Origin: Chloroflexota bacterium
GTDB taxonomy: Bacteria; Chloroflexota; UBA11872; VXOZ01
NCBI GenBank assembly: GCA_958295775.1
Contig: CATQHC010000006.1
Location: forward strand, 62,001 to 126,000
DNA length: 64,000 bases
Direction of reading: 5' to 3'
Shown in pieces: positions 2,430 through 13,995 of the stretch. Position 1 is the stretch's first letter, and every line of letters begins with the position of its first letter. The notes below the pieces were generated by a model, which was not told the DNA's origin, ran no database searches, and saw nothing but the letters and a program-made list of their open reading frames with translations. A program made the translations under genes and the position numbers.

Positions 2430-3446
2430 TCAATGCCTGAGTGACCTGATTATGGGTCCAGACGCCAGCAACTGCGCGAGGTCTCCCGCCCGGTCTACGC
2501 GGCCGAAGTAGTTGCAGGGAACTACCTCGAACGTCTCCAAACGGCGCATGAGTTCATCGAGCAGCAAGTTCTGGCCGATGTTGTCCGTGGCGTAGTGGGG
2601 CAAGCGCACGAGCGCAATGCCGTGCTCGCGGCAGGCCTCTACTGTTGCCGCTCCCGCCGACACCTGCACCACTGTAGTCACACCGGCTTTCACCAACAGC
2701 GGGAAGGCGCTGGGTGGATACGCGTAGCCACCGGCAAATTTCGCGTGGATGCGCCCGGCGGGCTGATCTGCAGCGCCGGTCATGATGCGGGGCACGGCGC
2801 CAATGCGGGCGGCTTCCTGCATCTCCGGTATCGTCAGCATGATCTCGATAATGTCGCCCACGGTCCGCGGCTGCTCCCGCGCGAAGAGCGCGTTGATGTA
2901 TTGGCGGTGGGCGAGGTCTACCGGCGTATGGATGCAGGCCAGCGGATACCCCAGCAGTTTGGCGGTATCGGGCCCAATGCGGTGCACGTCTTCGTGTTCC
3001 CGCAGCCGTGCCGCCATGAAGTCGAAGATGCAGGTACGCGCCTCATCTTCCGGCACACCTTCCCAGATGAGATAATCGGCGTTGATCTCCATGAAGTCGG
3101 CAACCAAAGAGGCTGAGATACCGACGCTGTTCGTATGGTGCGAAATGAACGCATCGATCTTCGTTCCCTTCGCGGCGAGTTGCGCGCCGAGCAGCATCTC
3201 TTGCACGTGCATGTTAATGCCGACCAGCGCGGTGCCGATGGACGTGTCATCGGGGCCGTTGGCAATGCGCACGTCGCCGTAAGGATTCCTAAAGCGCTCT
3301 TGATCATAGAGCGCCTTTTCCCAGGTAGGCAGCGCGGCGTATTCGTCGCGTCGATGCTGCAGTTGCCGCTCAATGGCTTCCTGGCCCCTGGGATCGAGCT
3401 CTCGGCCGATTTCGATGGACGTCTCGTACAAGTCGCGCAGGGTCAT
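2430..3446 (-). CDS. NIF3-like protein, paralogue 1
   Basis: About 338 residues, starting at ATG 3446 so that it begins MTLRDLYETSIEIG like its two paralogues in this window; the longer reading frame to 3488 has no counterpart in them. The layout resembles the NIF3 (NGG1-interacting factor 3) superfamily: a HH pair in SHHTNSVG near residue 102, ACIHTPVD near residue 178, and a C-terminal VRLPHYATDN, all likely metal-ligand regions. The C-terminal CNYFGRV motif is shared by all three copies. NIF3 proteins are dinuclear-metal proteins, often linked to GTP cyclohydrolase-like chemistry, but their role is poorly known. This copy lies alone, 8.5 kb from the other two. The family assignment rests on motif spacing. 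Confidence 0.6.
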   Translation of the reverse strand: MTLRDLYETSIEIGRELDPRGQEAIERQLQHRRDEYAALPTWEKALYDQERFRNPYGDVRIANGPDDTSIGTALVGINMHVQEMLLGAQLAAKGTKIDAFISHHTNSVGISASLVADFMEINADYLIWEGVPEDEARTCIFDFMAARLREHEDVHRIGPDTAKLLGYPLACIHTPVDLAHRQYINALFAREQPRTVGDIIEIMLTIPEMQEAARIGAVPRIMTGAADQPAGRIHAKFAGGYAYPPSAFPLLVKAGVTTVVQVSAGAATVEACREHGIALVRLPHYATDNIGQNLLLDELMRRLETFEVVPCNYFGRVDRAGDLAQLLASGPIIRSLRH

Positions 3447-3717
3447 ACACGTGCTCCCATGCCACAATTCGGTTGCGGTACCATCCACATACTAGCCTTG
3501 CTGCGGAGATTGAACCGTGGGGGCGAGGCAATCCGGTATTCAGCCTCACCCTATCCCTCTCCCACAGTATACAGAGCGGGGTGTACACTTTGGGAGAACG
3601 CCTTCGCGAGGAGGCGTGGGAGCGCGGAGCTCTCCACTTTCACCTGTACTTAAGTCTCTGGCCGATTGAAAAGCAACGGAAGGAAAAAACGCCATTACAA
3701 CCGCTAAGGTAGGGACT

Positions 3718-5076
3718 ATGCTGCGGCGAATTGCCATTGTTGGCGGAGGCATTTCAGGGCTGGGCGCCGCCTGGGCACTGGATCAGCATCGGGACCGTTT
3801 TGACTTCCGGCTGTTCGAGGCCCAAGAACAAATCGGTGGAAATGCGATTACGGCTGACATGCCGCAAGCTGACGGCAGTTCAATCCCCTTCGATATTTCC
3901 GTCACCGCTTGTATCCCGTCGGTCTACCACCACATCCTCCTATTAATGGAAAAGTACGGCATCGACCTGATCGATACCAAATTCAGCTATAGCGTGAAGT
4001 ACCGCGGCCAGGTGTACGCACACGACTTCGAATCTGAAATCAGGGAGCAATTACAGTTCGAAATCACGAAGTTCCAAAGACTCTTGGAGCGTCTCCACTG
4101 GTTTGGCGGCCTGACCCGCGCCCAATCGAAGCTGCTGAACGCCCTCAACCCATTCAATTACCTGAGCATGGGGACGGTTTTGAATCTGGGAGGGTTTTCC
4201 GGGGAATTCAGATACAAGATATTGAAGCCGATGTTCGTCAACTTTCTGATGGCAACGAACGTATTCGACATGCCCGCAGCGCTCTTTGCCCGGTATCTTG
4301 AATTTTTCGACATCGAGTCCGCTACTCCCATGCAAACGTGGGGCCAGGGCACACGGGGCATTTACGAGAACCTAACGGCGAACTTTCGGGACAAGATCTA
4401 CCTCAACCGGCCGGTCCGCAAGGTGCACCGGCAAGAATCTCGCGTCGTAATCGAGGACGAGAACGGTGACCGCGAGGTATTCGACGAGGTGATTCTCGCC
4501 TGTAATGCGAACCAAACTCTGATGCTGCTCGACAGACCCACTTTTCTTGAACGCTATATTCTCTCGTCAATACGCTACGAGAGCGAGCTCCACAACCATA
4601 CGGTAGTCCATTCCGACTCCTCGGTCCTGCCGGACAACGAAGTGAAGCCCTTGACGACGCGGAGCAATCACATCGAACAGTACGGCGCGAGACCGGACAA
4701 CTATGAAATCACGTACATCATGCACAACCAGCAACCGTGGGCAAACCGCTCAGACAAACCCTGCTTGGTGACCTATAACCCCATCAGCCCCATCGACGAA
4801 CGCAAGGTTGTCAAGAAGTGGTGGTTTCAGCACATCGTCCATGACGTGCGGCACGTCGCGTGGCTCGTCAACCTGTTTCGCTTCATCCAGGGCAAGCGAC
4901 GCACGTGGCACTGTGGGGCGCATACTCTGATCAACAGCCAGGAGACGTGCCTCGTTACCGGGCTCGCGACGGCACGGCAAATCGGCGCGGCCTACCCTTT
5001 CGACGATCCCGCGGCAAAGCGCATGTTCAACTACTACGGACGCATCATGTACGGTTGGCGCTTTCGGAAGGCGTAG
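3718..5076 (+). CDS. FAD/NAD(P)-binding amine-oxidase-like oxidoreductase (COG2907-like)
   Basis: 452 residues. The N-terminus has the Rossmann dinucleotide-binding motif IVGGGISGLGAAW (residues 6-18) with an acidic strand end (LFEAQEQIGGNA), diagnostic of the flavin amine oxidase / phytoene desaturase fold. Mid-protein NHTVVHSDSSVLPDN and the C-terminal WHCGAHTLIN resemble the predicted NAD/FAD-binding COG2907 proteins, which often accompany lipid-modifying enzymes. A flavin oxidase or desaturase acting on a hydrophobic substrate is the likely role, by inference. ATG 3718 follows a modest purine stretch (AAGGTAGGG). It precedes a convergent Rieske oxygenase gene, with a repeat-containing gap between them. 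Confidence 0.75.
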   Translation: MLRRIAIVGGGISGLGAAWALDQHRDRFDFRLFEAQEQIGGNAITADMPQADGSSIPFDISVTACIPSVYHHILLLMEKYGIDLIDTKFSYSVKYRGQVYAHDFESEIREQLQFEITKFQRLLERLHWFGGLTRAQSKLLNALNPFNYLSMGTVLNLGGFSGEFRYKILKPMFVNFLMATNVFDMPAALFARYLEFFDIESATPMQTWGQGTRGIYENLTANFRDKIYLNRPVRKVHRQESRVVIEDENGDREVFDEVILACNANQTLMLLDRPTFLERYILSSIRYESELHNHTVVHSDSSVLPDNEVKPLTTRSNHIEQYGARPDNYEITYIMHNQQPWANRSDKPCLVTYNPISPIDERKVVKKWWFQHIVHDVRHVAWLVNLFRFIQGKRRTWHCGAHTLINSQETCLVTGLATARQIGAAYPFDDPAAKRMFNYYGRIMYGWRFRKA

Positions 5077-5380: not shown

Positions 5381-6433
5381 TCAGGCAGTTGAGCCGCCGT
5401 TTTCGCTCGCATCGGGATAGAATTGGGCGCAGTAGCGGCGGTAGCGGGTGATCTCGCCGTCGGACTTGCAGAGGCGCGGCCGGGATTGGTACCGCTTGCG
5501 GCTCCAGATGATCTCATCCTGCAGCACTTCCCGCTCTTGCTGCGACGCGGTGAACTTGTTCATGATTGGCGCGCGCATGCCCACCGGCAGAAAACCCAGG
5601 CCTGCGAGCCAGCGTTTCGGCTTGCGCAACTCCCGCACTTGCGAGGCCAGCGACATCTCTATGAGCGTGCCGTCAATAGGAGTCGACAGCACCCAGAGAC
5701 GCATGTCCATGCCGATCGAGTGTTCGCGAATGTCCACGAATGAGTAGCCGAGCCCGTGGACATGCGTGTCGGCGGTAAGATCAAACGTGAGTTTTGCGAC
5801 TCTCGCGATGGAGCGGGTGGACCTGAAGTTGAAACGGCTCCTCAGATAGGGACCGTCCACCGACACCGGCTCAATGCGTTCCACCTTGCCAAAGCCGTGG
5901 ATGTAGCGCAGATGGGCCAGGTCCACCGCGTTCTCCGAAGTCTCCTGGGGATGGCCGGCAAAGCGGACGGTGCGGATTTCGAGGTCACACCAGCCGTCTT
6001 CATCCAGGGAGTCCGCAGGCAGGCGCCACTGCGGTTCCCGTCCCTCGCTCCCCCACCAAGCGAAGATCATGCCGGCGATTTCCTCTGTCTCGAAAACGCG
6101 CAACCCCGTGGCCCGTGGCGCGGGGGCATACGGCGTGGCGACGCACGTGCCGGTGGCATCGAACTCATAGCCGTGAAATGGACATACCAGCCGGCCCGCG
6201 CGCACGCGGCCCCCGGCAGCGGGGCTCAGGTCGGAGCCCAGGTGCGGGCAGAACCCCTCGGCAACGCAGATTTGGCCGCTATCATCGCAATACACGACGA
6301 TGTTCTCACCCATCCAGGTCTTCTGGATGAGCTTCTCTTTCTCGATGTCCTTGCGGCTTGCTATGAAGTACCAGCCCTCGGGAAACGGAGAAGGGAGCGT
6401 ACCGCTCTCAGGCGCTCTGAGTTGAGTTGCCAT
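5381..6433 (-). CDS. Rieske [2Fe-2S] non-heme iron oxygenase
   Basis: 350 residues with the two-domain layout of a ring-hydroxylating oxygenase alpha subunit. The Rieske centre is C62-x-H64 and C84-x2-H87 (FCPHLG ... CPFHGYEF). The mononuclear iron site lies in ENAVDLAHLRYIHG: bridging Asp171, His174 and His179. The short catalytic domain and the SENAVDLAH form are closer to sterol or ketosteroid Rieske oxygenases (KshA, Neverland/DAF-36 type) than to benzoate-type enzymes; this is inference from pattern. No reductase or ferredoxin gene is adjacent, so electrons must come from elsewhere. It is divergent from the GPP34-P450 gene, with 250 bases between the starts, suggesting shared control. 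Confidence 0.85.
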   Translation of the reverse strand: MATQLRAPESGTLPSPFPEGWYFIASRKDIEKEKLIQKTWMGENIVVYCDDSGQICVAEGFCPHLGSDLSPAAGGRVRAGRLVCPFHGYEFDATGTCVATPYAPAPRATGLRVFETEEIAGMIFAWWGSEGREPQWRLPADSLDEDGWCDLEIRTVRFAGHPQETSENAVDLAHLRYIHGFGKVERIEPVSVDGPYLRSRFNFRSTRSIARVAKLTFDLTADTHVHGLGYSFVDIREHSIGMDMRLWVLSTPIDGTLIEMSLASQVRELRKPKRWLAGLGFLPVGMRAPIMNKFTASQQEREVLQDEIIWSRKRYQSRPRLCKSDGEITRYRRYCAQFYPDASENGGSTA

Positions 6434-6683
6434 TGCTTCAAGCTTAGATTAAGTAAGTTTGGCAGGCATTGACTTGCTTGCCGTCAGCAAACTAACATAC
6501 ACTCAATAGTAGCAAATCCACTTACATGTCACATTGCGGACGCGTTTATGTATGGAGTGCCGCCCGCTTCCTCGGATAGACAGAACCCATTTTCTATTCC
6601 TATTGCGCTGGATTAACCTACCCAATTCTTTGCCGCGTTGAGACGGCCTCCCGGGATCCAAGTCATACAAGGAGGTAAGACTT

Positions 6684-8717
6684 GTGTCTGTCGCAACCGA
6701 AAACATCGCCACCCACGAACTGACGCTGCCGCAAGAACTCGTTCTGATGTTCCTCAATGAGGAGACCGGCTACTTCCACCAAGTGCCCGGCTGGAATTTG
6801 AATTGCGCCATCATCGGCGCCCTCCTGGCGGAACTCTTAGTCCGCTACCGCATTGACGCGGATGGGGAATCCCTTAAAGTTCTGGACCGGACAGAGACGG
6901 GCAACCTTGTCTTGGATCCCATTCTAGCGAGAATCGCAGACGAACCGGAGGAGCACACTGTTGAGTATTGGGTCGAGCGGCTCGTCTTTCGCGCACCGTC
7001 GATCATCGAACTGATTCTGGAGCGCTTAGTTGAGCAAAATGTCCTGGATTATCATGAGGGCGAGTTCTGGACGCTGGCGCGCACTTCCTGGCAAACGGAA
7101 GTTTACGCTAAATCCCGTGGCAGCACTGCGGTTGAGTTCGTCAAGACGCGCGTGGGCAAGACGATCTTCGACAATGAGATTCCCAGCCTAAGAGATGCCA
7201 TCATTATCTGCCTCCTCGATACGTGCGACGTCCTCCGCTTCATATTCCAACTTGACGATGAGTCAGAGGAACGCATCAAACTCATCTGCAGGATGAGTTT
7301 GATTGGCCGGTCAGTCGCCGAGGCGGTCGCCAGCAATTTCGCCGGCGGCACGCTCCAGCGGTCCGTTCTTGCCAAGTCGATTCCAACCGTCCCATTGCAC
7401 AAGCTGCTGTTGAATCCGCATGTGCGCACCGGCAACATTCCGGCGATCTTTGCGGAACTGAGAAAAGAGTACGGCCCGGTGTTTCAGTTGCGTCCGCCCT
7501 TTTCCGAGCCTCTATATTTCATAGGCGGACCCCGCGTAAATCAATGGGTGCAACGAAACGGGCGGCAGTACCTACGGGCGCGGGATTACTTTGCCGACTT
7601 CGAGAAGGTCTACGGCGCGTCCGGACTCATTCCCGCCGTGGATGGAGCCGACCACTTCCGGCTGCGCAAGGCCATGTCTCCGGGGTATTCACGCGAGAGA
7701 CTGGAGGCGCAACTGGATGAGGTCTATCGCAACGCCCGCACGTATATGGCGGATTGGAAGGTCGGTGACTCCTATTCTGCGCGGTCACTGTGCCGGCGGA
7801 TGATCAATGCGCAAATTTCGCCGCTCACCGTCAGCATTGAGTCACAAGACATCGTCGACGATCTCATGGCATACAAAGAACGGGGCCTCTGCACGCACGT
7901 CGCGCGGGTCCTGCCCAAGTTCATGCTCTATACCCCCGGCATGAGACGCCGGGCGAAAGTCGTCGATGAGGTGACGAACCGGGTCCAACGCGTCCATACG
8001 CCCGCCCAGCGCGCGGGTCGTCCACGGGATCTTGCGGATGACCTTCTCAGCCTTCAGGCCAGCGATCCGCAGTTCCTGCCGGAATCGAATATGCCGTTCA
8101 TGCTCTCGGCGCCGTTGCTTGCCAGCATGTATCTGGGCGATGCGCTGAGCTTCGCGGTCTACGCCATGGCGGCGCAGCCCGAAATGTACGCAAGGATTCA
8201 GAAAGAAGCCGACGCCTTGTTTGGCGATGGCGATCCGCAGGGCGAAGACTTCACCCTGGAAGCACTCGACGTCACGCACCGCTTCCTCATGGAGGTCATG
8301 CGCATGTACCCGGTTGTGCCCATGTCTATTCGCAACGTCATGAACACCTGCGTGGTGGAAGGCTTCGAGTTGCCGGTGGGCGCGCGGATCCATATCGCTA
8401 CGACCGCCTCTCATTACTTGGAAGACGCCTTTCCTGAACCGTTCACCTTCGATATCGACCGCTATACGGCGCCGCGCAATGAGCATCGCAGCCGGGCGTA
8501 CGCCCCCTACGGCCTGGGTACACACACCTGTCTCGGCACTCGGCTAATGGAACGGCAATTGGCGATCAACGTGCTGATGATCGCGCACTACTTCACGCTC
8601 GAGGTATCCCCAGACAAGTTCAAGCGCAAGCTCACGTTCAGCCCCTTCCCGTCCAACAAACCGAGCGGGAAGCTGAAGTTCGTCATCGCCGAGCAGCGGC
8701 GCGAGTTATCTGCTTGA
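6684..8717 (+). CDS. GPP34-like domain fused to a cytochrome P450
   Basis: 677 residues. Residues about 12-215 match the Golgi phosphoprotein 3 (GPP34) pattern: ELTLPQELVLMFLNEE, AIIGALLAELLV, a LERLVEQNVLDYH winged-helix-like strand, and a closing LRDAIIICLLDTCDVL ... IGRSVAEAV helix pair. Residues about 235-670 are a cytochrome P450: K-helix E537-V-M-R540, and heme loop PYGLGTHTCLG with ligand Cys616. The loop has Tyr in place of the usual Phe. The I-helix (478-493, LLASMYLGDALSFAVY) lacks the normal acid-alcohol pair, with Met482-Tyr483 at that place. The start is GTG 6684, eight bases after AAGGAGGT. GPP34 binds phosphoinositide in eukaryotes; its bacterial ligand is unknown. A membrane-lipid or terpenoid substrate is likely but inferred. 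Confidence 0.85.
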   Translation: MSVATENIATHELTLPQELVLMFLNEETGYFHQVPGWNLNCAIIGALLAELLVRYRIDADGESLKVLDRTETGNLVLDPILARIADEPEEHTVEYWVERLVFRAPSIIELILERLVEQNVLDYHEGEFWTLARTSWQTEVYAKSRGSTAVEFVKTRVGKTIFDNEIPSLRDAIIICLLDTCDVLRFIFQLDDESEERIKLICRMSLIGRSVAEAVASNFAGGTLQRSVLAKSIPTVPLHKLLLNPHVRTGNIPAIFAELRKEYGPVFQLRPPFSEPLYFIGGPRVNQWVQRNGRQYLRARDYFADFEKVYGASGLIPAVDGADHFRLRKAMSPGYSRERLEAQLDEVYRNARTYMADWKVGDSYSARSLCRRMINAQISPLTVSIESQDIVDDLMAYKERGLCTHVARVLPKFMLYTPGMRRRAKVVDEVTNRVQRVHTPAQRAGRPRDLADDLLSLQASDPQFLPESNMPFMLSAPLLASMYLGDALSFAVYAMAAQPEMYARIQKEADALFGDGDPQGEDFTLEALDVTHRFLMEVMRMYPVVPMSIRNVMNTCVVEGFELPVGARIHIATTASHYLEDAFPEPFTFDIDRYTAPRNEHRSRAYAPYGLGTHTCLGTRLMERQLAINVLMIAHYFTLEVSPDKFKRKLTFSPFPSNKPSGKLKFVIAEQRRELSA

Positions 8718-8895: not shown

Positions 8896-11361
8896 CTATG
8901 CCTGCTCGTAGCGCTGCTGCACGGCCTCGATCTCCAGATCGAGCTCGTCCGCCCAGCGCTTCACCTTGGAGCGCAGCCGGACATTCTGGTAGGCGCCCCA
9001 GATTGTCATCGCAGGTGGAACCAGCAGGACGGACACTAACAGCGAGTAGAGGATCGTGATGGAAGCCGCAATTGCGAACTGCTGGGACGCAAGCAGCGGC
9101 GAGGCAATTAGCGCGCCAAGTCCGAGCGCCGTCGTGAGCGCGGAACCCAGCAGCGCCGAGCCGGTAGTCGCGAGTGTCCGGATTGCCGCCTGCTCCGGGT
9201 CCCGCCCGCGGGCGTACTCTTCGCGATAGCGATGAATCACATGGATAGTGTAGTCAACGCCGATGCCTACTGAAAGCGCCGTGATAATTGACGTAACCAG
9301 CGAATAAGGAATATCCAGCAGCGCCATGGTGCCCAGCACCGAGATCAGCACGAGCACGATCGGGCCCACCGCGATGATGGACAGCGCCGGCTGGCGCACC
9401 GTCACCCAGAAGAAGAGCGTCAGCACGCCGAGAGCCACCGCGATGGTAGTAGCAATCGCCTCTGTCTGTCGTTCTGTAATAGCGTCCGTGATTGTGATAG
9501 AGATGATACTCTCCGATGTTGCCGTTATATCCTCGGCATCACCTAACCAAAGAGTCTCTATTGCCTCCTGAATCTCTTTAGCTTGACTGGTGTCGCCCGA
9601 GAAGGCCGGGAATTGGAGCAGCATCGCATCAGTGCCGGCCGGATTGTTGACCAGGAGATACGAGAGCGTCGGGTCCTGCGCTTGGAGCCTATCGAGGAAC
9701 TCCTGCATCAGCCTGGTATCCAGTCGCACACCCGCCGAGGCTTGCCGGAAAAGGGCGGCGAGCTCCGGATCGTATTTGTCGCCGGGCTGGCCGCTGTCGT
9801 GAATCCAGTCACGCACAAGCAGTTCATACGATGCCTGAATTGGCCCCGCCGCGGCGCCTGGGCGGCGCTCTTCGTCCTCGAAGGCGGCGGTGATGTCCCG
9901 CAGGTTCAGCAGCGTGCGGGTCTCTGTGGCCTCGGCTTGGACGAGTACACTAACTATCTCCGTTGAGCCGCCAAATGCCGCGTCGATGGTGTCCAAGTCC
10001 GCCAGTAAGCTGCCGCCTCTGGGCAAAATGTCGCGGATGTTGAATTCCGACTTGATTCCTGTCGCCGCGTAGCCCAGCGCAATCGTAACCCCGAGCACTA
10101 CGATGAGGTAGGGCGCAGGCGCGCGCGTGATACTCCTGCCCAGCAGTGCCGCCAAGCCTTCGATACCGGGCAACGCCGCAGCTACCAGACGGGGCGACTT
10201 TAGTTTGCCCCGGGCTTCCCGACGCCGGTCGATGATCGTCCTGCCGGCCGGGAGCAGTGTCAGCATCACGATGAGGGTCATGCCCACACCCAAACCCGCA
10301 ACCATGCCGAAATCGCCAATAATTCCTATAGGAGAAAACAGACTTACCAACAGGCTCACGATAGTGGTGACTGCGGCCAGCACCAGCGGAATGGTAACGT
10401 TGCGCAGTCCTCTTTGGGCGGCCGCTACCACCGGCTCGCCTTCATGTCGCTGCTCGCGATAGTGTGAGACGATCTGAATCGCGTAGTCCACCGTAAGGCT
10501 GATTACAATAATTGGCACCATCGCGGTAAGCTGATTTGGCGGCCCGATGATGCCCAGCGCGTCAGGACCCAACCAACCTTCCACACCAACAATCCACATC
10601 AGCGAAATGAAGAGTCCGGCCAGCGTGAGTAGTAGATCAGATAGTGTGCGCAGGAAGAGCATGATAAGCCCGGCGATGAGCAAGAGCGCCAGCCCAATCA
10701 ACGGCCCCATGCCTTCCTGGGTGGCCTTCTTGTACTCGTCCTCGATCACCGCAGGTGATACGCTGCTCACCTGCAGCGGCCCCTCCGATGCGGCTGCAAG
10801 TTCGTCTATTCTAAGTTCAGCGTCGTCAATGCGCTCATCACCCGTGTCCCGCAAACGGATAATGGCAATTGCCACCTCAGTACCATCCGTATCGGCGCCG
10901 GTCAGGGCGTCAAGCGCCGCCTGAATCTCGGGTGGGCCGCGGGCAGCATTGATCTGTTCCTGCGTGACAGCTGCTACGTTGTCCGTTTGGAGCACAGCCT
11001 TGATCAGCAACACGGGCGCGATGAGGGGATCGACCGGCGCAAACAACCCATTTACGGCTGGATCGCCGACGATCTCATCGATCAGGGCATCCATCTGCGC
11101 TAGACCGCCGGGCGTGAGCGCGCTGCCGCGGAAGAGGAGCGTTACCACATTGGCTTTACCGGATTCACCAAAGAGCTCATCGATCTCAGCTATGGCTTCG
11201 GCAACGCTGCTCCCTGGGGGAAGTATTGCCTCGTCTCCGGGGGGCGGCGCGCGACGCACGGCTCCCGCGGTCAGGAAGATCGTTATGTTGAGAATCACGA
11301 AGATCGTGATCCACGGGTAGGTAGTTATTAACCGGCTAAACCTACCAAGTATCCCTTCCAT
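8896..11361 (-). CDS. MMPL/RND-family transporter
   Basis: 821 residues with the RND repeat layout: one membrane helix near residues 16-35, a large extracytoplasmic loop, five or six helices, then the whole arrangement again. Each half has the family signature at the fourth helix region, DYAIQIVSHYREQ in the first and DYTIHVIHRYREE in the second. The family (COG1033; HpnN, MmpL and sterol-sensing Patched relatives) exports lipids, hopanoids or other hydrophobic compounds by proton motive force. ATG 11361 has GAGGAG eight bases upstream. It lies convergent with the GPP34-P450 gene and may move the product of the neighbouring oxygenases, by inference. Confidence 0.85.
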   Translation of the reverse strand: MEGILGRFSRLITTYPWITIFVILNITIFLTAGAVRRAPPPGDEAILPPGSSVAEAIAEIDELFGESGKANVVTLLFRGSALTPGGLAQMDALIDEIVGDPAVNGLFAPVDPLIAPVLLIKAVLQTDNVAAVTQEQINAARGPPEIQAALDALTGADTDGTEVAIAIIRLRDTGDERIDDAELRIDELAAASEGPLQVSSVSPAVIEDEYKKATQEGMGPLIGLALLLIAGLIMLFLRTLSDLLLTLAGLFISLMWIVGVEGWLGPDALGIIGPPNQLTAMVPIIVISLTVDYAIQIVSHYREQRHEGEPVVAAAQRGLRNVTIPLVLAAVTTIVSLLVSLFSPIGIIGDFGMVAGLGVGMTLIVMLTLLPAGRTIIDRRREARGKLKSPRLVAAALPGIEGLAALLGRSITRAPAPYLIVVLGVTIALGYAATGIKSEFNIRDILPRGGSLLADLDTIDAAFGGSTEIVSVLVQAEATETRTLLNLRDITAAFEDEERRPGAAAGPIQASYELLVRDWIHDSGQPGDKYDPELAALFRQASAGVRLDTRLMQEFLDRLQAQDPTLSYLLVNNPAGTDAMLLQFPAFSGDTSQAKEIQEAIETLWLGDAEDITATSESIISITITDAITERQTEAIATTIAVALGVLTLFFWVTVRQPALSIIAVGPIVLVLISVLGTMALLDIPYSLVTSIITALSVGIGVDYTIHVIHRYREEYARGRDPEQAAIRTLATTGSALLGSALTTALGLGALIASPLLASQQFAIAASITILYSLLVSVLLVPPAMTIWGAYQNVRLRSKVKRWADELDLEIEAVQQRYEQA

Positions 11362-11732
11362 GGCACTCCTCTTTATCTGAGAGAATCTCGCAGAGCGGCG
11401 TAGAACCCAGGCGGAGTCCGAGTGCTGGCACGGGAGCCTTGGACGTGGCAGACGACATTGTCCTCCTCAGGTTAGGCGACGGTGTACTGCCCCATCCAGG
11501 ACTCTTCTACGAGCCTATCCCTAACAATCGCCTCACGGCGTCCGCCAGATTCCGGTTGTCCGGAGGTGGAGAAGACAGCGGTGCGATCTCGGGCGATTTC
11601 TCTCAATTTGCTCTCTCATAACACTCGCCACAGTAGATTTTCAATTGACAGCATACCCATAAGCCAACTAACGCGTTCTCAATGGTACCAAAACCCCTTG
11701 TCCAGCACAGACCGGTATCCGCACTTCCACTG

Positions 11733-11903
11733 TACTCCGGCTTCGGCGCAGGGACAGCGGTTGATTTCGCCAAATCTCGTATTGGCAAGGTGCGATTTAA
11801 TTGCGAGTTGCCGAGTACAACGGACGCGATGCTCGTCACACCCATGGATTTGTGCGCTGTCCTTCGCTTGATAATCCTACTCGATGAGGCATTTGAGGAG
11901 CAC
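11733..11903 (+). pseudogene. Relic of a second GPP34 domain
   Basis: In one forward frame 57 residues align without gaps to residues around 146-202 of the GPP34-P450 protein; I count 25 identities (for example FAKSRIGK against FVKTRVGK, and LCAVLRLI against TCDVLRFI). No GPP34 N-terminal part, no P450 part and no ribosome binding site are visible around it, and the 3' part runs into the convergent NIF3-like gene. It is best read as the remains of a duplicated GPP34 gene. The rest of the gap 11362-11923 holds nothing I can name. Confidence 0.6.
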
Positions 11904-11923: not shown

Positions 11924-12895
11924 TCAAATCCCGTTGCGTTTGATGCGCTCGAAGTAGTTGCAGGGAATGACGTGCAGCGGCCCGAGACGCTGCTCCACCT
12001 TGTCGAGCAAGAGGTTGAGGCCGACGTTATCGCAGGCGTTGTGGGGCATGCGCACCCAGCCCATGCCGAGTTCCTGCGCCTGGCGCTGGTGGGCAGCCGG
12101 GCAACCGATGGTGACGAACGTGCCGACGCCTGCCTCTTTAAGCAATGGGATCACCTCTACCGGAAACATCCAGCCGCCGCCGTCCTGATGGAAGATGCGG
12201 CCCATCGGCTGTTCCGCGTCTCCCGCCATAATCCGCGGGATCGCCCCAATCCGCGCCGCGCCCTGAAATTCAGGCAACGCCAGCAGCGCCTCCACCACGT
12301 CGCCCACCGTCTCGGCATGAGCGTCCTCAATAGCCCCCCGCACGCCCCGGCCGTGATGAAAGTCGGCCGGTGTATGGATGCACGCCAGCGGAAACTCCAG
12401 CAATTTCGCCATGTCGATGCCGTTGCGGTTGAAGTCTTCGGCGTAGTTCCAACGGTCGGTCATCATGTCCGTGATGTGGGGCTCGGCGTCGGCCCGGGCT
12501 ACACCCGCATCTGCGAGCAGGTCAACGTGATAGGGCACCGTGTCATAGATGAGCGTATCCGCCGGTACCCCGATGCCGTTGGTATGGTGGGAGAGGACGG
12601 CGTCGATGCGTGTGCCGCTGCCGCGCAAATTGTCCGCTAGCAGGAGTTCTTGCGTGCCGATGTTTATGCCCATGAGGATGGTAGTGAGTTCGGTATCTGC
12701 CGGACCATGCACAATGCGCACGTCGCCGTAAGGATTGTTGAAACGCTCTTGGTCGTAATAGGGCTTGCGCCACTCCGGCAGCGCTGCGTACTCCTGTCGC
12801 CGCTGCACAAGCTGGCGGTCAAGGGCTGCCCGTCCGCGCGGGTCCACTTCACGGCCGATTTCGATGGCTGTATCGTACAGATCACGCAGGGTCAT
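11924..12895 (-). CDS. NIF3-like protein, paralogue 2
   Basis: 323 residues, beginning MTLRDLYDTAIEIG. It shares with the other two copies the N-terminal block RFNNPYGDVRIVHGPAD, the HH pair in SHHTNGIGV (His103, His104), LACIHTPAD (His174, Asp178), the C-terminal VRMPHNACDN and the closing CNYFERIKR. These match the metal-ligand segments of the NIF3 superfamily, though the copies are divergent from YbgI/YqfO and lack the inserted PII-like domain. It lies 137 bases downstream of paralogue 3 on the same strand and could be co-transcribed with it. The function is unknown. Confidence 0.6.
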   Translation of the reverse strand: MTLRDLYDTAIEIGREVDPRGRAALDRQLVQRRQEYAALPEWRKPYYDQERFNNPYGDVRIVHGPADTELTTILMGINIGTQELLLADNLRGSGTRIDAVLSHHTNGIGVPADTLIYDTVPYHVDLLADAGVARADAEPHITDMMTDRWNYAEDFNRNGIDMAKLLEFPLACIHTPADFHHGRGVRGAIEDAHAETVGDVVEALLALPEFQGAARIGAIPRIMAGDAEQPMGRIFHQDGGGWMFPVEVIPLLKEAGVGTFVTIGCPAAHQRQAQELGMGWVRMPHNACDNVGLNLLLDKVEQRLGPLHVIPCNYFERIKRNGI

Positions 12896-13032: not shown

Positions 13033-13995
13033 CTAGTTGCGCTTTACTCTTTCGAAGTAGTTGCACGGGATGACATTGAGCGGTCCCAACCGGCGTTCCA
13101 CTTCATCCAGCAGCAAGTTGATCCCAATGTTGTCGCACGCCGCGTGGGCGATGCGCACGATTGCCACGCCCGCTGCCTGCGCGGTCTGCGCGTGCACCGG
13201 CGTACAACCTATCTGCAGCACGGTATTCACCCCTGCGTTGCCGAGCAACGTGTACGCATCCGGCGGCAGCAAGTAGCCGCCGCCAAACTTGAGCAGCATG
13301 CGTCCCGCCGGCCAGTTTTCTTCTCCACTCATCACGCGGGGTTCAGCGCCAATGCGGGCCGCGCTCTGCACTTCAGGTATCTCCATCAGGGCGCGCACCA
13401 CGTCGCCAACGGTCTGGGGCTCTGCTGCTTCCACTGCGGGTCGGACGCCTTCGCCAATGTAGTAGTCCGCCGGCGTATGGATGCAGGCCAACGGGAACCC
13501 CAGCAACTTCGCCATGTCGGGCCCCATGCGGGCCGTATCCTCAAGTGACTGCTCTTTCTCCTCGATAGAGCGGTTGATGCACACCGCCGCGTCCGCGCGG
13601 GGCACTCCTTCTTCGGCTAAGAAGTCAATCGCTACCGGCATGAAATCGTGCACCAGCGAAATGGCTACGCCGATGCCGGTGGTGTGGTGGGCAATCACGG
13701 CGTCGATCTTCGTGCCCTTGCTGCGCAAGCGGTCGGCCAGCAAGAGTTCGTCCAAACCGATATTGATGCCCAGCAGGACCGTTTCTAGCTCCACGTCCGC
13801 CGGGCCGTTGACGATGCGCACGTCGCCGTAGGGATTGCGAAACCGCTCCTGGTCGTAGAAGGGCTGTTGCCACGCGGGTAACGCCGCATACTCCGCACGC
13901 CGCCGCGCGAGTTGCTGCCGCAACGCCGCCTCACCGCGCACGTCAAGCGCCATGCCAAGCTCAATTGACGTCTCGTAAAGGTCGCGTAGTGTCAC
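13033..13995 (-). CDS. NIF3-like protein, paralogue 3
   Basis: 320 residues from GTG 13995 (MTLRDLYETSIELG). It carries the same landmarks as paralogue 2: RFRNPYGDVRIVNGPAD, AHHTTGIGV, LACIHTPAD, VRIAHAACDN and a final CNYFERVKRN. Its first half is the closest of the three to paralogue 1 in the helix that follows the start. It is the upstream member of the 13995-11924 pair and is divergent from lhgO. A dinuclear-metal hydrolase role is plausible from the family; the substrate is unknown. Confidence 0.6.
   Translation of the reverse strand: MTLRDLYETSIELGMALDVRGEAALRQQLARRRAEYAALPAWQQPFYDQERFRNPYGDVRIVNGPADVELETVLLGINIGLDELLLADRLRSKGTKIDAVIAHHTTGIGVAISLVHDFMPVAIDFLAEEGVPRADAAVCINRSIEEKEQSLEDTARMGPDMAKLLGFPLACIHTPADYYIGEGVRPAVEAAEPQTVGDVVRALMEIPEVQSAARIGAEPRVMSGEENWPAGRMLLKFGGGYLLPPDAYTLLGNAGVNTVLQIGCTPVHAQTAQAAGVAIVRIAHAACDNIGINLLLDEVERRLGPLNVIPCNYFERVKRN

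Follow-up and report, generated by a model that had tools for sequence, protein, structure and literature searches.

The closest described systems are the steroid gene clusters (CSGs) of Ircinia symbionts (Kelly 2022, PMC9531527) and the bacterial SMT clusters (Brown 2023, PMC10070321). Like the locus presented here, these occur in sponge symbionts of many phyla, contain sterol genes with an SMT nearby, and carry evidence of transfer between classes. However, they consist of ERG24, CYP51 and LSS together with sdmAB and SMT, whereas the cassette described in this study is found mostly in genomes without an oxidosqualene cyclase. The gene set of a de novo CSG (oxidosqualene cyclase, CYP51 and ERG24) is missing here, since the cyclase is absent from the genome and such genes lie beside the fusion only in Nitrospirota.

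Two further systems are relevant to the fusion protein itself. The CYP51-ferredoxin protein of Methylococcus capsulatus (6mcw, 7jj1) is a bacterial sterol P450 that likewise carries an additional domain in the same chain and has a heme loop of the same FGxGxHxC type, but its partner is a C-terminal ferredoxin instead of an N-terminal GPP34 domain, and identity is only about 18-20%. The eukaryotic proteins GOLPH3/Vps74 share with our GPP34 half the fold, the Pfam family and a hydrophobic hairpin; in contrast, the fused domain lacks the PI4P-binding arginines, is strongly acidic and is joined to an enzyme.

Sterol clusters and their transfer in sponge symbionts are already known, but the GPP34-P450 fusion and its cassette were not found in the open-access papers searched. 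The main texts of PMC9531527 and PMC10070321 mention neither GPP34, nor Rieske proteins, nor the fusion P450, and a search of open-access papers (subscription papers, supplements and preprints lay outside it) for GPP34 with P450, or for sponge symbionts with Rieske and P450, returned nothing relevant.

Architecture of the fusion gene

The analysed stretch of DNA (64,000 nucleotides of Chloroflexota contig CATQHC010000006.1, positions 62,001 to 126,000; hereafter the window) encodes the fusion with the following features:

6669..6676, + strand: strong Shine-Dalgarno site AAGGAGGT, 7 bases 5' of the GTG, read directly
6684..8717, + strand: GPP34-P450 fusion gene, 677 aa, GTG start, stop included
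6726..7331, + strand: GPP34 domain (residues 15-216), with the hydrophobic hairpin and without the GOLPH3 PI4P residues
7416..8678, + strand: cytochrome P450 domain (residues 245-665), with Pfam, profile and structural matches
8121..8141, + strand: I-helix segment A480-S-M-Y-L-G-D486, in place of A-G-x-D-T; A, S, Y, G and D invariant in 55 fusions
8505..8537, + strand: heme loop P608-Y-G-L-G-T-H-T-C616-L-G618

The position of the Shine-Dalgarno site ahead of the GTG indicates that translation begins at the GPP34 end. The original prediction, that one frame joins a whole GPP34 domain to a whole P450 with heme ligand Cys616, was borne out by the Pfam scan. A significant GPP34 match (PF05719) was found within residues 1-230, at 15-216, spanning profile positions 1-199 of 201 (E 1.3e-28; 100.9 bits against a cut-off of 29.1), and the p450 match (PF00067) covers residues 245-665 and profile positions 14-461 of 462 (E 5.6e-36). 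The linker comprises approximately residues 217-239, and the P450 ends near residue 670 of 677. Cys616 is invariant in 55 fusions, as are E537 and R540 of the ExxR motif.

The prediction was to be refuted if homologues had the two halves as separate genes and the frame arose from an assembly join. Such a join, together with misbinning, was ruled out by about 55 full-length loci in other genomes, by chromosome-level records (L008, L012, L019, L025 and L046), which neither misbinning nor a contig join can explain, and by purifying selection on both halves (dN/dS 0.11-0.19 against three congeners). The pairwise distances of the two halves correlate (r 0.80), and the halves are equally conserved, with 26% and 25% invariant positions in the 55 fusions. 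Between window positions 6684-8714 and L004:10001-12031, dS amounts to 0.90 in the GPP34 part and 0.38 in the P450 part; this inequality may reflect recombination within the gene.

A second, older type of GPP34-P450 fusion was identified at L108:7284-9287, L109:1272-3311, L111:6969-9032 and L046:5258-7282. These paralogues occur in the same groups and have the same domain order as the window protein but only 29-32% identity to it, and the representatives in L108, L109 and L111 retain A-G-x-D-T, unlike the window type. The next gene in L108 and L109 encodes an acyltransferase, and no neighbours of the cassette described below surround the copies in L108, L109 and L111. The L111 copy is interrupted by a TAG codon.

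The GPP34 half

Because comparison of the whole-fusion structure was silent on GPP34, this half was modelled separately with AlphaFold2. The only PDB entries matched by the model (Foldseek) at E < 0.001 were GOLPH3/Vps74 (8 chains, E 1e-8 to 5e-6), the next match having an E of 0.45. The GOLPH3 fold and the full-length profile match above the cut-off place the domain in the GPP34 family (PF05719).

The PI4P pocket of GOLPH3 is formed by W81, R90, R171 and R174 (PMC4414131). The aligned positions of the fusion are P, V/I, E and I/V, and the replacement of the three arginines holds in nearly all 55 fusions; W37 is invariant, yet lies two alignment positions away from W81. The net charge of the window domain is -16 (family median -19). 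The expectation of a basic, phosphoinositide-type pocket therefore had to be abandoned, and PI4P-like binding was rejected on the residues. Most stand-alone GPP34 proteins encoded in these genomes have Arg at the R174 position, which shows that the fused domain has diverged further.

The broader part of that prediction, a membrane or lipid role, fared better than the pocket, as a lipid link is backed by the genomic context (an SMT-like protein, a KshA-like Rieske oxygenase, a sterol-sensing match of the MMPL transporter, and the sterol genes of Nitrospirota). A hydrophobic beta-hairpin (F128, W/Y129, L/V131), which aligns with GOLPH3 F194-F197, is conserved, and peripheral membrane docking through it is possible, judging from the alignment. 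The strong acidity of the domain disfavours anionic membranes.

The stand-alone GPP34 gene of the window genome (L116:7974-8621, - strand; contig C9) sits between two genes with neutral-ceramidase-like domains (L116:6515-10240), and related genes flank a stand-alone GPP34 gene in the same arrangement in a congener (L087). These neighbours represent a putative second lipid-enzyme context for bacterial GPP34.

The P450 half

The fold, the PF00067 match, the ExxR motif and the heme-Cys motif place this half in the cytochrome P450 superfamily. In structural alignment CYP46A1, CYP184A1 and CYP51 were the best matches (VIA Z 33-35), practically tied with each other and also with non-sterol P450s. 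The highest Z (35.1) was obtained for CYP46A1, the cholesterol 24-hydroxylase, a P450 acting on the cholesterol side chain, but its identity to the fusion is 16-17% and its lead over CYP184A1 and CYP51 of about 1 unit amounts to a tie. The best PDB profile match was CYP51 of M. capsulatus. P450s are assigned to one family at a threshold of about 40% identity. Membership of CYP51 was ruled out at 18-20%; moreover, CYP51 has A-G-x-H-T in the I helix, in contrast to the A-S-x-Y-x-G-D of the fusion.

The latter motif was present in 55 of 55 close fusions and in three from another Chloroflexota family, and the acid-alcohol pair of canonical monooxygenases (A-G-x-D/E-T) was accordingly missing from all 55. 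By alignment, the acid position has been deleted (one residue) and Thr replaced by Tyr; the heme loop is poorly modelled in the predicted structure, and for this reason the position of the Tyr was taken from the alignment. Among 15 more distant relatives, with or without a fusion, 14 keep both the acid and the Thr. In the tree, the branch leading to the A-S-x-Y-x-G-D family is long and has full support. The loss of the pair suggests a changed reaction rather than mere drift, without indicating which one.

Genes surrounding the fusion

The fusion is part of a cassette, whose other members in the window are the first three entries below; the fourth is a remnant beyond them:

3718..5076, + strand: FAD enzyme with amine-oxidase fold, nearest solved relatives LkcE and a polyenoic fatty acid isomerase-type aminooxidase
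5381..6433, - strand: Rieske oxygenase of the KshA_C family, nearest solved relative 3-ketosteroid 9alpha-hydroxylase
8896..11361, - strand: MMPL-family transporter with sterol-sensing-domain and HpnN/HAE3 matches
11709..11900, + strand: decayed GPP34-like remnant, 44% identical over 57 aa to fusion residues 140-196 (E 6e-10)

The Rieske protein (KshA-like match at E 9e-29) is of the KshA type, having both Rieske and KshA_C domains and the metal-site residues CxH...CxxH and DxxHxxxxH. The GPP34-like remnant downstream of the MMPL gene is probably an old second copy; it was not found at the matching place in L003-L005. Three related genes without a Pfam match lie on both sides of the cassette (2430-3488, 11924-12895 and 13033-13995, - strand). 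No redox partner was found in the cassette.

Over 60 loci (including the window and two duplicate copies, and with many loci cut by contig ends), the Rieske gene was present in 48, the FAD enzyme in 34 (median identity 82%), a class B SMT-like gene in 33, an MMPL transporter in 22 and an AcrB-type RND pump in 20. Among 41 Chloroflexota genomes of the window's class, the Rieske gene accompanied the fusion in 22 of 23 carriers and occurred in none of the 18 non-carriers.

The SMT-like proteins (e.g. L006:12070-13131 and L016:17515-18546) fall into two classes: (i) a regular class, with region I Y-E-Y/F-G-W-G, located near cyclase genes, and (ii) the divergent class B, which accompanies the fusion. 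Class B has a PF08498 C-terminus above the cut-off, but its region I is altered (e.g. M-V-F-G-W-G) and its divergent catalytic domain is closest in the PDB to other methyltransferases. For the MMPL protein, the score against the hopanoid transporter HpnN exceeds that against the sterol transporter BstA.

Next to the cassette in Nitrospirota lie genes for a fused squalene epoxidase-oxidosqualene cyclase, for ERG24, for proteins resembling SdmA and SdmB, and for a second P450. The epoxidase and cyclase apparently form one frame in Nitrospirota sponge bins (L010:4523-7927, L048:13998-17600 and L054:17595-21032).

Distribution and probable horizontal spread

A scan of one genome per species yielded full-length copies of the fusion from about 55 further species and at least eight phyla, mostly at 60-67% identity to that of the window. 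By record title these are Chloroflexota, Gemmatimonadota, Nitrospirota, Pseudomonadota, Actinomycetota, Binatota, Latescibacterota and Bdellovibrionota. Across the same phyla, ribosomal protein S2 is only 43-50% identical, whereas within the genus both proteins show 88-89% identity. In the fusion tree, sequences cluster with others of their phylum, yet well-supported splits divide Chloroflexota, Actinomycetota and Pseudomonadota into at least two clusters each. Taken together, the identity values and the tree splits point to horizontal spread between phyla, although two proteins can saturate differently. Within Acidimicrobiia, 16 of 296 sampled genomes had a match to the fusion, all at 58-64%, and tandem copies were observed in two bins of this class (L037:1917-7849 and L040:9929-14083). 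A plasmid-borne copy was sought in PLSDB, where no record covers 80% of the fusion.

The carriers are apparently sponge symbionts, as documented for three loci (L022, L040 and L042, whose accessions mark them as bins from the sponge Aplysina aerophoba; PMC5649159) and by name only for the others. The prefixes RHO and COS would be consistent with Rhopaloeides and Coscinoderma, which PMC8163846 examined as hosts.

Sterol capacity of the carrier genomes

No squalene/oxidosqualene cyclase domain was found in the window genome or in five congeners, and no SMT C-terminal domain in the window genome. A sterol substrate would therefore have to come from outside the cell. Strong oxidosqualene cyclases were detected in only 9 of 34 genomes (all but a few of them chosen as fusion carriers), a count limited by incomplete bins. 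In many carriers a sterol substrate would likewise need to be imported, probably from the host or from neighbours.

Discussion

We propose that the fusion is a membrane-docked, sterol-tailoring P450 within a horizontally shared cassette of sponge-associated bacteria, a reading to which we assign a probability of roughly 0.55. The P450 half would share a sterol or steroid substrate with the KshA-like Rieske oxygenase and the flavoenzyme, a dedicated SMT-like methyltransferase would often handle the same molecules, and substrate or product would be carried by the MMPL transporter or RND pump. In the window genome, which lacks a cyclase, the sterol would be of host or community origin. GPP34 would most likely dock the enzyme on the membrane face via its hydrophobic hairpin, with no phosphoinositide binding, and so stand in for the N-terminal anchor that holds eukaryotic sterol P450s at the membrane. 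As no close member retains the acid-alcohol pair, the enzyme probably catalyses something other than a standard hydroxylation, or else receives its protons by another route.

The sterol as substrate is inferred from the KshA-like Rieske, the SMT C-terminus, the sterol-sensing match of the MMPL protein, the Nitrospirota sterol genes and a P450 fold near CYP46A1, CYP51 and CYP184A1. Against the proposal as a whole stand the divergence of the class B SMT, the closer similarity of the MMPL protein to HpnN, the acidic GPP34 half, the lack of a redox partner in the cassette, the tied non-sterol P450s and a sponge origin documented at just three loci. A bolder version is conceivable but doubtful: GPP34 could be a sterol-facing membrane module and the P450 could perform a rearrangement, a desaturation or a peroxide-driven step leading to unusual sponge sterols, in a pathway exchanged across phyla inside sponges and fed partly on host sterol.

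The cassette might instead serve catabolism, with the P450 starting side-chain oxidation, the Rieske enzyme opening the ring, and host sterol as food. The Rieske gene next to the P450 and the absence of sterol biosynthesis from the window genome would suit such a role, but the SMT-like protein and the biosynthetic sterol genes near the cassette argue for building rather than breaking. Furthermore, the ring-cleavage dioxygenase model TIGR03213 matched neither the window genome nor its congeners and was strong only in a Binatia genome among 15 tested, which, for this single marker, speaks against complete degradation of the steroid ring. We consider catabolism unlikely. Still less probable is a hopanoid or another polycyclic lipid as the substrate: the resemblance of the MMPL protein to HpnN and the squalene-hopene cyclases of many carriers in families f3 and f4 are in its favour, but neither kind of cyclase occurs in the window genome and congeners, and the SMT and KshA families have sterols and steroids as their substrates.

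Two other alternatives concern the halves of the protein. GPP34 could serve as an acidic module for protein docking or regulation (with a redox partner, the Rieske enzyme or the transporter), in keeping with its net charge of about -19 against +7 on the P450, the invariant, surface-type residues R56, R156, R170, D171 and R185, and the role of GOLPH3 itself as an adaptor for protein tails (PMC12494035). The membrane hairpin is nevertheless conserved, and no partner was found for this half; we prefer membrane docking without phosphoinositide and regard the docking module, though a tentative proposal, as its close rival. There is a somewhat better, if less than even, chance that the P450 is an ordinary monooxygenase in which another residue or water delivers the protons, an explanation that concerns the reaction only and is compatible with sterol tailoring. 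The heme Cys and ExxR are intact, and some P450s hydroxylate without the conserved Thr. However, here the acid and the Thr have both gone and one residue has been deleted; this state is fixed throughout the close members, whereas the relatives nearly all keep the pair (14 of 15).

Which organisms make the unusual sterols of sponges is debated, and one such sterol serves as what may be the earliest chemical evidence for animals (PMC10070321). With the cassette, sterol tailoring by bacteria gains a concrete candidate that can be tested, one present even in bacteria without a cyclase, and the fusion offers a P450 family with a fixed and unusual active-site helix. As bacterial GPP34 is here physically tied to a defined enzyme, its role becomes accessible to assay.
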